DNA of 33,746 nucleotides, from the NCBI GenBank assembly GCA_021646405.1, contig SOER01000037.1, forward strand, positions 1 through 33,746, written 5' to 3'. Positions 24,583 to 28,793 of the stretch are shown here, one piece after another. This stretch comes from Candidatus Loosdrechtia aerotolerans. GTDB lineage: Bacteria; Planctomycetota; Brocadiia; Brocadiales; Brocadiaceae. Position 1 is the stretch's first letter, and the number at the start of each line of letters is the position of its first letter. Under the pieces are notes generated by a model. It was not told where the DNA came from, made no database searches, and saw nothing but the letters and a program-made list of their open reading frames with translations. Made by a program: the position numbers and the translations under genes.

Positions 24583-25557
24583 TTATTTATTCCGTATTAA
24601 AATAGTATCCTGAATCGCTTCTCTCTTCCTGATAGAATCTATTTCCGACAGGAATCGTTGCGCATCCTCATAATAGCCCGCAGTTGGTTTTAAGCCGGGC
24701 ATAAATTGAATCCAGTACTGGTTCTCAAGCCGCATAAACAATTCTCTGATATATTTACTGAATATTGAAGCCAGGGCCACTGTCATACACGCGTTTTCAC
24801 CTTTTTTTACAAAAGATATCTGCATCTCTTTTTCTACCTCTGAGATCCTATACACCGAAACCTCAGCACCTTCTTTTAAGACACTTATATCTGCTCCGGG
24901 TAACCGGTCCTTCAGGAGATAAAAATAACTATTCCTGCCACCATGCTTATCAACAACCAACCGTATATCACCATCATAACTATTCCATATACCGGTAATC
25001 AGTGATATACAGTTGTCAAACAGTACCGTAGACTTATTTCCTGATAATTCTACCTGTTCATTCCATTCTTTAACGGTTACGACACGGCAGCCTATAGAAG
25101 GAATCTGTACACCCTGCTCATATAAAACGTATTTTAACAGATTTGCATAAGGTAAAACAGAAGAAACACTTGCTGTTAATGGTAATTGATAATCCTTTTC
25201 AGTATACCAGGGATAACAGTCCAGTATTTTGGTATGATAGCATGAAAGGACATCAAGCAGTTGGCAAAAGGATGCAATTTTTACATCCCTCGACAGCAAA
25301 ACAGAAAAGACAACCTCCTCGAGTGGTTTTAACCCGGTACGTGCACTATATAACTTTTTACTATCTGCTATAGCCAACCGATGCTTTTTACCTTTGAGTG
25401 TATCAGAGACGGCATCTTTCAGGAGTCTCCACAGCGAGCAATCGGCCTTTTCGTCCGGTATATCAAAGGCAACTGCAGAAATTACCAGCGGTCCAAGTAC
25501 AGGACCATATCCAGCTTCATCTATACCTGCCAGGATAGCCATAGTACCGGCATTCAA
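24583..25557 (-). CDS. Extended RNase HII-like nuclease-fold protein
   Basis: The N-terminus matches type 2 RNase H: G-I-D-E-A-G-Y-G-P-V-L-G-P-L at 11-24 with Asp13 and Glu14. It is followed by D-S-K-K-L at 65-69 (the family usually has D-S-K-x-L), V-V-D-K-H-G-G-R at 201-208 (Asp203) and A-S-I-F-S-K-Y-I-R-E at 263-272. At 324 residues it is much longer than usual RNase HII (about 200), with an inserted region at about 85-195. The acidic residues suggest a metal nuclease, but RNA/DNA-hybrid cleavage is not shown. The TTG start at 25557 has AGGA six bases upstream. An ATG at 25542 is the alternative start. Confidence 0.75.
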   Translation of the reverse strand: MNAGTMAILAGIDEAGYGPVLGPLVISAVAFDIPDEKADCSLWRLLKDAVSDTLKGKKHRLAIADSKKLYSARTGLKPLEEVVFSVLLSRDVKIASFCQLLDVLSCYHTKILDCYPWYTEKDYQLPLTASVSSVLPYANLLKYVLYEQGVQIPSIGCRVVTVKEWNEQVELSGNKSTVLFDNCISLITGIWNSYDGDIRLVVDKHGGRNSYFYLLKDRLPGADISVLKEGAEVSVYRISEVEKEMQISFVKKGENACMTVALASIFSKYIRELFMRLENQYWIQFMPGLKPTAGYYEDAQRFLSEIDSIRKREAIQDTILIRNK

Positions 25558-25647
25558 GAGGTTTCCTGTTAAGTTCGCAAATTTCTTGTAAAGGTAAAAT
25601 TCCTTGTATTATATCGCTTTGTGAATGAAAGTCAAAATTCATTTTCC

Positions 25648-25676
25648 TTGACAATATTTTCAGTAAAAAATATAAT
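25648..25676 (+). promoter_or_regulatory. Perfect-consensus sigma70-type promoter of the his operon
   Basis: TTGACA at 25648-25653 and TATAAT at 25671-25676 are separated by exactly 17 bp. Transcription would start near 25683, leaving about 90 nt of leader before hisD. Confidence 0.88.
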
Positions 25677-25731
25677 TTTTGAATCATTGCCAGACTAATG
25701 AAATATATAATTTATCACCAGAGAAAGAGAT

Positions 25732-25757
25732 ACGAGGTTTACAGCCTCGTTATTTTT
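25732..25757 (+). terminator. Terminator-like hairpin in the hisD leader, possible attenuator
   Basis: The six-base arms ACGAGG (25732-25737) and CCTCGT (25745-25750) enclose a seven-base loop and are followed by TATTTTTT. It lies between the promoter and hisD and ends 15 nt before the hisD ATG, so it would cut transcription before the operon. A 20-codon open frame starting at ATG 25698 runs through it and stops at 25758-25760, but it has only one His codon and no clear ribosome site. Attenuation or a roughly 75-nt small RNA are both possible. Confidence 0.6.
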
Positions 25758-25772
25758 TAAGAATTACAAACA

Positions 25773-27122
25773 ATGCGAATCCTCAAGACATGGAAATGTA
25801 ATATTCATAAAGAAATTGGTAAGATTAAGCAAGGTTTAAGTATTTTCAATGGTTTTTCTCATCAGAAAACAACCGTTCGTAAAGTTATTCAAGATGTTCA
25901 AAAACAGGGAGACAAGGCCCTGGTAAACTATGGTAAGCGGTTCGACAAGGTCTCCCTTTTGCCAAAAGAGTTCCGGGTAAAGGACAGGGAGATTGCAGAT
26001 GCATATAAAAAGGTATCTGTCTCTTTTATAAAATCTATTCAGCAGGTCATCACAAACATATGGACATATCAGGAACATATAAGAATTCGTAGCGTTACCC
26101 CAATAAAGGCAAACGGCGTTGTACTCGATACCCTGTATTTACCACTTGATAGTGTAGGGGTATATGTGCCGGGTGGTGCTGCTTCATATCCTTCCACCGT
26201 GCTCATGAATACCATACCGGCGCGAGTAGCAGGCGTTACACGAGTAGTTATGGTTACACCACCGGCAAAAGACGGAAGTATTGCACCGGAAAGACTCGTG
26301 GCAGCAAAAGAGGCAGGCGTTCATGAGATTTACAAACTCGGCGGGGCACAGGCTGTTGCAGCCCTCGCCTTTGGTACTGAAACGATTCCCAGGGTAGATA
26401 AGATTGTGGGCCCCGGGAATATATTCGTAACACTTGCCAAGAAGGAAATTTTTGGATATGCCGGCATCGATATGCTGGCAGGACCCAGCGAAGTCCTGAT
26501 CATAGCAGATGATCTTGCAAACCCATCATTTGTTGCATCAGACCTGCTATCACAAGCAGAGCATGCACCGGGCATATCCATACTGGTCACTTTCTCAGAG
26601 TTACTGGCAGCACAAGTGTTAGAAGAGTTACAAAAGCAAATAGATACGCTTAATCGCCGTACCGATACAAAAAAGTGCCTTGATAAATTTGGTATCATTA
26701 TCATAGCAAAAAATATTGATGAATGTACAGAAATCGCAAATGAAATAGCCCCGGAGCACTTACAAATCATAACACGAAACTCCAGGAATGTATCCTCGAA
26801 CATCAAACATGCAGGTGCAATTTTCCTGGGTCCATACACACCTGTTGCATTAGGAGATTATATTGCAGGACCTTCTCATGTACTCCCGACAAGCGGGACA
26901 GCCCGTTTTTCTTCCGGATTATCGGTAAATGATTTCCTGAAAAGATCCAGCATCATTACCTATTCAAAATCAGCGTTAAGGGATGTACATGATACTTTAA
27001 CAGAAATTTCGAAGGTTGAAGGTTTAGACGCTCATACACGTTCTGTTCAAATCCGATTAAACAAGCAAAAAAAGAATTTACAAAAGCGCAACGGTATAAA
27101 GAAAAAAAATGCAGAGGAGTAA
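25773..27122 (+). CDS. hisD: Histidinol dehydrogenase HisD
   Basis: It catalyses the final two NAD-dependent oxidations from histidinol to histidine. Family signatures are visible: Y-V-P-G-G, G-G-A-Q-A-V-A-A-L-A, K-I-V-G-P-G-N, D-M-L-A-G-P-S-E, the zinc/active-site stretch L-L-S-Q-A-E-H, P-E-H-L, and G-P-S-H-V-L-P-T. The 449-residue length is slightly long because of a lysine-rich tail after about 425. No clear ribosome site precedes the ATG. First gene of the plus-strand his cluster. Confidence 0.96.
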   Translation: MRILKTWKCNIHKEIGKIKQGLSIFNGFSHQKTTVRKVIQDVQKQGDKALVNYGKRFDKVSLLPKEFRVKDREIADAYKKVSVSFIKSIQQVITNIWTYQEHIRIRSVTPIKANGVVLDTLYLPLDSVGVYVPGGAASYPSTVLMNTIPARVAGVTRVVMVTPPAKDGSIAPERLVAAKEAGVHEIYKLGGAQAVAALAFGTETIPRVDKIVGPGNIFVTLAKKEIFGYAGIDMLAGPSEVLIIADDLANPSFVASDLLSQAEHAPGISILVTFSELLAAQVLEELQKQIDTLNRRTDTKKCLDKFGIIIIAKNIDECTEIANEIAPEHLQIITRNSRNVSSNIKHAGAIFLGPYTPVALGDYIAGPSHVLPTSGTARFSSGLSVNDFLKRSSIITYSKSALRDVHDTLTEISKVEGLDAHTRSVQIRLNKQKKNLQKRNGIKKKNAEE

Positions 27123-27126
27123 TAGG

Positions 27127-28200
27127 GTGAATTATTTCCGAGACAATATTGAGCGAATGTTGGGATATATGCCGGGTGAGCAGCCCAGGGATGGTATCTA
27201 TATAAAACTGAATACCAATGAGAACCCGTATCCTCCTTCCCAGGGGGTGTTGCATGCTATCAAAGAGGCCGTAAATAATAGCCTTCGCCTTTATCCAGAC
27301 CCGCTTGCAACAGCAGCAAGGGTAAAAATTGCTGAAATATTAGGTACAAAACCTGAACGTGTTATGGCGGGAAACGGTTCCGATGATTTATTATCAATTA
27401 TTGTACGGAGTTTTGCCGGTCCCGGAGATAAAATCGTCTTTCCGTATCCCTCGTATATGCTTTATCAAACACTCACTGAATTGCAGGATGCAACGGCATG
27501 CATTGTAGACTTCACTGAAGATTATTCCCTCCCCGGTGATTTTATTGTAAAAGATGCAAAGGTAACCTTTCTTGCGAATCCAAATTCCCCTTCAGGGACG
27601 CTGATATCGCCGGATGAAATATCAAAGATCGCTTCACAGATAAACGGTGTACTCGTTATTGATGAAGCATATGCCGATTTTGCAGAAGATAATTGTCTCT
27701 CCCTTGTTGAAAAACACGATAACATCCTTATCCTTCGTACACTCTCAAAATCGTATTCCCTGGCCGGTATCCGATTAGGCTTCTGTATTGCCCAGGAACC
27801 CCTCATTCAGGGAATGATGAAGGTAAAGGACTCATACAACGTTGACCGGCTTAGTATAGCCGCTGTTGTAGCTGCGCTTGATGATCAGGATAGTATGAAA
27901 ATGCATGTAAAAAAGATCAGGACAACAAGAGAGTATCTTACAGAAACCCTGGGGGACATGGGGTTCTTCGTTTACCCATCCCAGGCAAATTTCATACTCG
28001 TTAAATGCACAGAAGGTATTTCTGCTTACAATCTCTATCAGACATTGAAATCGAGAAAGATACTGGTACGATATTTTAATCTCAGAAGGTTAGACGATTG
28101 TTTGAGAATTACCATCGGAACAGAAGAGGAGATCAATACTTTATTAAAAGATCTCAGAGAGCTGGTAAAAAACAATTATGGAAAAGTGAAAACCATTTAA
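27127..28200 (+). CDS. hisC: Histidinol-phosphate aminotransferase HisC
   Basis: A fold-type I PLP enzyme converting imidazole-acetol phosphate to histidinol phosphate. The GTG at 27127 is chosen because AGAGGAG ends seven bases upstream and the start follows the hisD stop by 4 nt. An ATG at 27109 overlapping hisD would add six residues. N-P-N-S-P-S-G lies at 152-158, D-E-A-Y-A-D-F at 179-185, and the PLP lysine in S-K-S-Y-S-L-A-G (Lys208). The N-terminal L-N-T-N-E-N-P-Y is typical of HisC. Complete. Confidence 0.95.
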   Translation: MNYFRDNIERMLGYMPGEQPRDGIYIKLNTNENPYPPSQGVLHAIKEAVNNSLRLYPDPLATAARVKIAEILGTKPERVMAGNGSDDLLSIIVRSFAGPGDKIVFPYPSYMLYQTLTELQDATACIVDFTEDYSLPGDFIVKDAKVTFLANPNSPSGTLISPDEISKIASQINGVLVIDEAYADFAEDNCLSLVEKHDNILILRTLSKSYSLAGIRLGFCIAQEPLIQGMMKVKDSYNVDRLSIAAVVAALDDQDSMKMHVKKIRTTREYLTETLGDMGFFVYPSQANFILVKCTEGISAYNLYQTLKSRKILVRYFNLRRLDDCLRITIGTEEEINTLLKDLRELVKNNYGKVKTI

Positions 28201-28793
28201 TGACAATAGAACGTACAGCGACTATTCAGAGAGGAACGAAGGAAACCCAAATCGAATTAACGATTAACCTTGATGGGAGAGGAAATAGCCAGATTAGTAC
28301 AGGTATCGGTTTCCTCGATCATATGCTTGATCTCCTTACCAAACATGCCCTTTTTGATTTAACTCTTAAAGCAAGTGGTGACCTCCATGTGGACGACCAC
28401 CATACGGTAGAGGATGTGGGCATTTGCCTCGGACAAGGAATAAAAGAGGCATTAGGAAGTAAAAGGGGAATACGGCGTTTTGCAAATACAAGCGTCCCTA
28501 TGCAGGAATCCCTTGCTAATATTGCTCTGGATATTAGCGGAAGGCCTGAACTTGTATTTCATGCAAAATTCTCTACAGGAAAAGTCGGAAACTTTGATGT
28601 AGAACTTATTGAAGAATTTTTAGAAGCGCTGTGTACAAATGCAGGTATTAACCTCCACATAAACGTTCCCTATGGAACCAATACCCATCACATTGCAGAA
28701 GCAATCTTTAAGGGAATCGCAAAGGCACTCGAAAGTGCTGTCCGGATAGATGAACGTATGAAGGATATCCCGTCAACAAAAGGAATACTTTAA
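28200..28793 (+). CDS. hisB: Imidazoleglycerol-phosphate dehydratase HisB
   Basis: It dehydrates imidazoleglycerol phosphate in histidine synthesis. The ATG overlaps the hisC stop as TAATG, which favours coupled translation; the longer open frame from 28098 lies inside hisC. Manganese-ligand motifs H-H-T-V-E-D and the C-terminal H-H-I-A-E-A are present, with G-F-L-D-H-M near the start. The 197-residue length is that of the monofunctional enzyme, so no phosphatase domain is fused. The other his genes are not in the window. Confidence 0.96.
   Translation: MTIERTATIQRGTKETQIELTINLDGRGNSQISTGIGFLDHMLDLLTKHALFDLTLKASGDLHVDDHHTVEDVGICLGQGIKEALGSKRGIRRFANTSVPMQESLANIALDISGRPELVFHAKFSTGKVGNFDVELIEEFLEALCTNAGINLHINVPYGTNTHHIAEAIFKGIAKALESAVRIDERMKDIPSTKGIL

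Follow-up and report, generated by a model that had tools for sequence, protein, structure and literature searches.

A conserved promoter and terminator-like hairpin in the hisDCB leader of a family of anammox bacteria

Why would a promoter that matches the consensus perfectly be followed, shortly before its gene, by a hairpin and a run of T's resembling a transcription terminator? This arrangement precedes hisD in the stretch of DNA analyzed here (the window; 33,746 nucleotides, contig C30), which is part of a 3.26-Mb anammox genome (G000) whose nearest named relatives are Candidatus Jettenia ecosi and Candidatus Brocadia species. The element is flanked on one side by hisD-hisC-hisB (25773-28793; Table 1) and on the other by a divergent gene that begins like an RNase HII gene (24583-25557, minus strand). 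A hisC-type relative lies 3' of hisD in all 29 family loci, and we found no relatives of hisD in viral contigs. The divergent gene, of 324 codons, is kept in relatives at 57-72% identity; the RNase HII model matches it only over the first 26 model positions (protein residues 10-35), and the remainder is unlike the family model. A promoter directed towards this gene (TTGACT-16-TATAAT, 11/12; 25608-25635, minus strand) stands back to back with that of hisD.

Table 1 Coordinates of the hisD element, its operon and two leaders of similar layout
Feature	Position	Strand	Evidence or remark
Promoter TTGACA-17-TATAAT (hexamers 25648-25653 and 25671-25676; flanks TTCATTTTCC 5' of -35 and TTTT 3' of -10)	25638..25680	+	12/12 in 26/29 family hisD leaders; flank identity about 0.7
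Leader, putative transcription start to hairpin, unconstrained spacer	25683..25731	+	identity 0.33 over 24 bases measured; 29-237 nt in 26 leaders
20-codon frame MKYIIYHQRKRYEVYSLVIF, one His; judged fortuitous	25698..25760 (ATG 25698 to TAA 25760)	+	not conserved
Hairpin ACGAGG-TTTACAG-CCTCGT, i.e. ACGAGG(T)..(G)CCTCGT, both arms sequence-conserved	25732..25750	+	27/29 family hisD leaders
U-tract TATTTTTTAA; family consensus TAATTTTTGAG	25751..25760	+	3 T columns invariant in 26 sequences; tail identity 0.82
hisD, histidinol dehydrogenase, gene behind the element	25773..27122	+	PF00815 E 8.6e-161; 449 aa ORF
hisC-type aminotransferase, operon gene 2	27109..28200	+	PF00155
hisB-type imidazoleglycerol-phosphate dehydratase (start codon uncertain)	28098..28793	+	PF00475 E 1.7e-64
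ahb-type gene leader	G000:C44 ~54.0-55.1 kb (L046, L170); relatives L171-L194		near-consensus promoter, variable spacer, conserved hairpin
nusA leader	G000:C27 ~15.1-15.3 kb (L218, L240); relatives L241-L259		near-consensus promoter, hairpin with T-rich tail

Promoter, hairpin and U-tract before hisD

The sole 12/12 promoter match in the window lies at 25648-25676 (0.01 expected in shuffles), and the whole genome holds 11 perfect copies of TTGACA-17-TATAAT against one of the reversed pattern. Both the perfect promoter and the hairpin with its T-run (25732-25758) are where the original prediction, made from the letters of the window, had placed them. The hairpin ends 22 nt before hisD, and the T-run ends at 25758. 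Judged from promoter geometry only, transcription would start at about 25683, and a transcript ending at the T-run would be about 76 nt long. The leader RNA from this position to 25772 folds at -16 kcal/mol, against -7.9 ± 2.5 kcal/mol for shuffled sequences (z = -3.25; none of 200 as good).

As in an intrinsic terminator, a G+C-containing hairpin stands directly 5' of a U-rich tract, at borderline strength: terminator scores fall near or below threshold, and the outcome varies with the variant of the scoring formula. The stem has A-U pairs at its base, the U-tract is broken by AA in most relatives, and five leaders (L009, L015, L019, L022 and L025) have weak stems; in the window and in L006, from the same genus, the T-runs are longer and less interrupted than in most relatives. 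What counts as evidence is thus conservation, since simple terminator-like patterns often turn up by chance (15 found, 8 expected).

Conservation of the hisD leader across the family

The comparison covered 29 family hisD leaders: a hisD search gave 28, and a covariance model of the hairpin and its tail (R1) added G029; L030, whose hisD belongs to a different family of the order, and L029, a leader cut by a contig end, were left out. The original prediction counted the lack of a conserved hairpin among the signs against it; one is present in 27 of the 29, with loops of 4 (14 leaders), 5 (12) or 6 (1) bases. The TTGACA-17-TATAAT promoter is kept in 26, and G029 has identical hexamers with an 18-nt spacer. 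Two genomes, G003 (L026) and G008 (L023), have hisD with neither promoter nor hairpin.

Pairwise identity, computed by region on 26 sequences, is 0.89 and 0.93 in the stem arms and 0.82 in the tail, 0.72 in the 15 bases 5' of -35 and 0.71 in the spacer between the hexamers, which themselves score 1.0 by the way in which the rows were chosen. It is 0.31 in the 5' flank of the hairpin and 0.36 in its loop, and the low value of the leader past the promoter is given in Table 1; four-fold degenerate sites of hisD stand at 0.446, far below the stem and tail. Identity beside the promoter is about 0.7 versus about 0.3 further out, and the region upstream of the hairpin flank is conserved in neither sequence nor length. 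This contrast indicates that two short islands, the promoter and the hairpin with its tail, are strongly constrained, whereas the stretch between them is not.

Natural inserts of about 100-200 nt separate promoter and hairpin in L007, L016, L019 (G030) and G029, and in L025 about 100 nt lie between the hairpin and the hisD start. Promoter and hairpin persist in all five of these leaders, with mismatches in the stems of L019 and L025; the hairpin is therefore tied neither to a particular leader nor to one distance from the start codon. No stem pair has changed on both sides, though the family has diverged, and single changes that keep pairing account for 6 of 18 changed cells by hand count, about the estimate for unconstrained substitution. 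Termination alone would be insufficient to explain stem letters conserved without a compensatory pair; a binding partner or slow turnover of short hairpins, alone or in combination, would account for them. The pattern of substitution fits recognition of the stem by a putative protein, one of the modes of control raised at the outset.

The conserved flank of the -35 hexamer was considered as a hisD-specific operator and rejected. A similar flank, TCATTTTYCTTGACAAC, stands 5' of one unrelated gene at four of the six secondary sites read (L164, L165, L166 and L168, in four family genomes); this conserved gene, with product MKFLTEY.TF.., is presumably YjbQ-like. Because the same unrelated gene is preceded by such a flank in other family loci, the flank is probably a promoter habit.

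With a threshold of E ≤ 0.1, R1 hits 27 of the 33 family genomes, in each case at hisD, with one weak additional match inside an open frame in G020. Since 26 of the 27 matched sequences also built R1, G029 is the sole independent recovery, and the other evidence is the alignment itself. Besides G003 and G008, the genomes with no match (G006, G007, G009 and G027) have no hisD hit or a cut one. A search of 29 genomes from other families of the order, under stricter filters than within the family, gave no match. In its own genome the element has no convincing second site that would suggest a shared operator or regulon: the next R1 match has an E of 0.14 (five of the six weaker matches were read, L064 being left out), and the exact core CGAGG-N3..9-CCTCG occurs at six places, of which the other five have no T-tail. 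Nor is hisG a second member, as the 14 hisG loci viewed lie close behind an apparent upstream coding frame and have no such leader. Among open-licence papers on anammox hisD and leaders, attenuation and terminators, noncoding RNA and promoters, and Kuenenia transcription start sites, we found no title describing the element.

A probable weak leader terminator and its alternatives

We consider it somewhat probable that the element terminates transcription prematurely, within the hisDCB leader. In 26-27 of the 29 leaders a promoter and a hairpin with a T-rich tail enclose sequence that is random, the T's right after the stem are invariant, R1 matches nowhere but at hisD, save for the weak in-frame match, and conserved hairpins with T-tails occupy the same position relative to the promoter before nusA and an ahb-type gene (see below). 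Against this reading stand the marginal scores, the five weak stems, the two genomes devoid of the element and the lack of the compensatory changes expected if only the hairpin fold mattered.

In such a mechanism, RNA polymerase would initiate at the consensus promoter, transcribe, in most genomes, some 30-50 nt of unconstrained leader and arrive at the short hairpin and a U-tract usually interrupted by two A's. Some transcripts may stop there and the rest continue into hisD, so that a strong promoter would carry a built-in brake on hisDCB. The hairpin appears to stand alone, with nothing conserved upstream from which an antiterminator or a leader peptide could arise; any control of read-through must therefore act on the hairpin and U-tract or on the polymerase. 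Possible inputs include the level of NusA or NusG, or a protein or RNA that recognizes the conserved stem.

The original prediction also noted a 20-codon frame reaching the end of the T-run, which we find as described, and suggested its translation as a means of control. Attenuation by a leader peptide encoded in this frame is extremely improbable, even though the frame in the window stops exactly at the T-run. The frame is not conserved even in L006, and ATG frames of at least five codons that start between the putative start site and the hairpin occur in only 7 of 26 leaders, with unrelated sequences, the other 19 having none; we reject the explanation because the frame is not conserved. Its single His codon, together with the want of a conserved frame, bears out the earlier judgement that this is not a classic His attenuator. 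RNAalifold, applied to 23 leaders aligned from the hairpin flank to +60, returned only the one hairpin and no alternative conserved pairing that might serve as an antiterminator.

The other known sensor types that we tested were likewise rejected. Neither a T-box nor any other Rfam family matches the window at gathering score, and no T-box is among the weak matches (E up to 10) in 25560-25900. A HisR regulon is contradicted by the occurrence of the TrpR family (PF01371) in 1 of 33 family genomes, G000 not being that one, and the conserved palindrome, AACGAGGC..GCCTCGTT, differs from the published HisR motifs (PMC9413887), namely the 20-bp palindrome cacTTTAnnnnnnTAAAgtg or TGTAnTArnnnnyTnTTACA.

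Could the element act as DNA rather than RNA? The stem letters are kept with no compensatory pair change, as they would be if AACGAGGC-N-GCCTCGTT were an operator whose bound repressor blocked elongation downstream of the promoter. Such an operator is improbable, since the variable loop lengths place the half-sites 1-2 bp nearer or farther from each other; its flank is conserved only on the T-rich side, its distance from the promoter is free, no second site was found in the genome, and repressors of the TrpR/HisR type are as rare as stated above.

The consensus promoter and terminator-like end would also suit a small-RNA gene of about 75 nt, as the original prediction had proposed, with hisD reached by read-through. 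We hold this to be quite improbable, as only the hairpin of this RNA is conserved, its body varying in both sequence and length. A conserved small RNA at the hisD leader is unlikely because the promoter-hairpin stretch is unconserved and so variable in length (Table 1); an RNA of about 75 nt would be a terminated by-product.

An element of the untranslated region that acts on mRNA stability or translation is a possible if unlikely reading; its hairpin would protect the message on the 5' side, and its U-rich tail, close to the start codon, would aid ribosome binding, with no termination involved. Among the 27 leaders with the element, all but one place the hairpin no more than about 45 nt from the hisD start; at the ahb-type gene, most leaders have about 17-24 nt between hairpin end and start; and the interrupted U-tract may make termination weak. 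However, the gap widens to about 100 nt in L025 and to 67-255 nt at nusA, and invariant T's directly 3' of the stem are the mark of a terminator.

Leaders of similar layout and known systems

We scanned 628 kb of the genome (an 18% sample plus the window; 511 ORFs) and found 11 hairpins with T-tails before genes that have no preceding same-strand gene, and four more behind one. At nusA, a hairpin AAAAGTGGG-N-CCCACTTTT with a tail like TTATTTTAAGG recurs in every one of the 20 leaders examined, out of 29 nusA matches (the script picked up 19, and L242 was read by eye), at a variable distance from the gene, and is a candidate for self-control by NusA. The ahb-type gene, reached via the other perfect promoters of the genome, adjoins the siroheme decarboxylase gene ahbA and encodes 290 residues with similarity to sulfite reductases and ferredoxins below curated cut-offs. 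Its leader hairpin, TTGCCGCAAT..ATTGTGGCAA with tail TTTTATTTTAAGGAG, retains a G-U pair in most genomes; of 25 leaders, 20 gave a hairpin by script; inspection by eye traced the misses in L171, L172, L183 and L194 to imperfect stems, and L174 was read at the wrong place by the script. At carA, which serves as a negative control, the hairpin of the own genome is not conserved: any hairpin with a T-tail occurs in 5 of 20 leaders examined of 32 carA matches, and these differ in sequence. Elsewhere in the genome, an SMC-like gene of 1207 codons has a strong hairpin with a T-tail 47 nt ahead of it (L203, G000:C11 ~267.6 kb; -20.9 kcal/mol).

The hairpins at hisD, nusA and the ahb-type gene are unrelated, and the stems of all three are kept largely letter for letter. 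Given the shared layout, the device is not restricted to histidine; the parallels place the hisD element in a class of conserved putative leader terminators, and it need not sense histidine. A broader proposal is that the family, Brocadiaceae by its named members, uses two-part switches at hisDCB, nusA and the ahb-type gene, each combining a consensus promoter with a gene-specific, sequence-conserved weak leader terminator whose read-through would be set by the NusA/NusG level or a dedicated RNA-binding protein with no leader sensor. We offer this tentatively, as a rather unlikely account.

Several described systems resemble parts of this arrangement. Premature intrinsic terminators in bacterial leaders, for which one survey quotes, in its background, an average of 1.6% of bacterial genes as candidate carriers (PMC2965389), share the order of promoter, leader, hairpin with U-tract and gene; our scan places such a hairpin before 11 of 511 ORFs with no preceding same-strand gene. 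Unlike the attenuators surveyed there, the hisD leader has no conserved upstream sensor or antiterminator, and its stem is conserved by sequence. The his attenuator of Escherichia coli and Salmonella likewise puts a terminator in the leader of a his operon, but the family discussed here has no His-run leader peptide and no antiterminator (PMC3896937). Corynebacterium glutamicum shares the gene order hisD-hisC-hisB and the absence of a His leader peptide; its leader is structured and about 93-196 nt long, and has been proposed to adopt a fold with a His specifier that is T-box-like or sequesters the SD, whereas the hisD leader has one small hairpin only and no Rfam match (PMC3896937).

In Bacillus subtilis, terminators that depend on NusG and NusA typically have weak A-U or G-U pairs at the stem base and an interrupted U-tract (PMC8060035). 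Weak basal A-U pairs and U-tract interruptions also occur in most of the aligned hisD leaders; the non-template-strand TTNTTT of the B. subtilis terminators is found in the tails of the window, L006 and L010, and not in the common family tail TTAATTTTT. By this analogy, the hisD leader terminator may be Nus-dependent. The nusA-infB operon of E. coli offers another parallel, with terminators upstream of rimP and reported control by NusA (PMC6511841): a leader terminator precedes the operon, and nusA of the anammox family has a leader hairpin too, although hisD does not encode a transcription factor. To connect the hisD and nusA leader terminators would be conjecture.

As a premature terminator, the hisD element is ordinary in kind; it is unusual in having no recognizable sensor. 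It constitutes a conserved control element with no Rfam match in an essential pathway of anammox bacteria and, if the terminator works, would be an attenuator that has no sensor and a stem preserved almost to the letter. The parallel nusA and ahb-type cases provide a set on which one hypothesis can be tested. Should the two-part switches be real, this family would couple histidine and haem synthesis to the condition of its transcription machinery and not to the end products of the two pathways.
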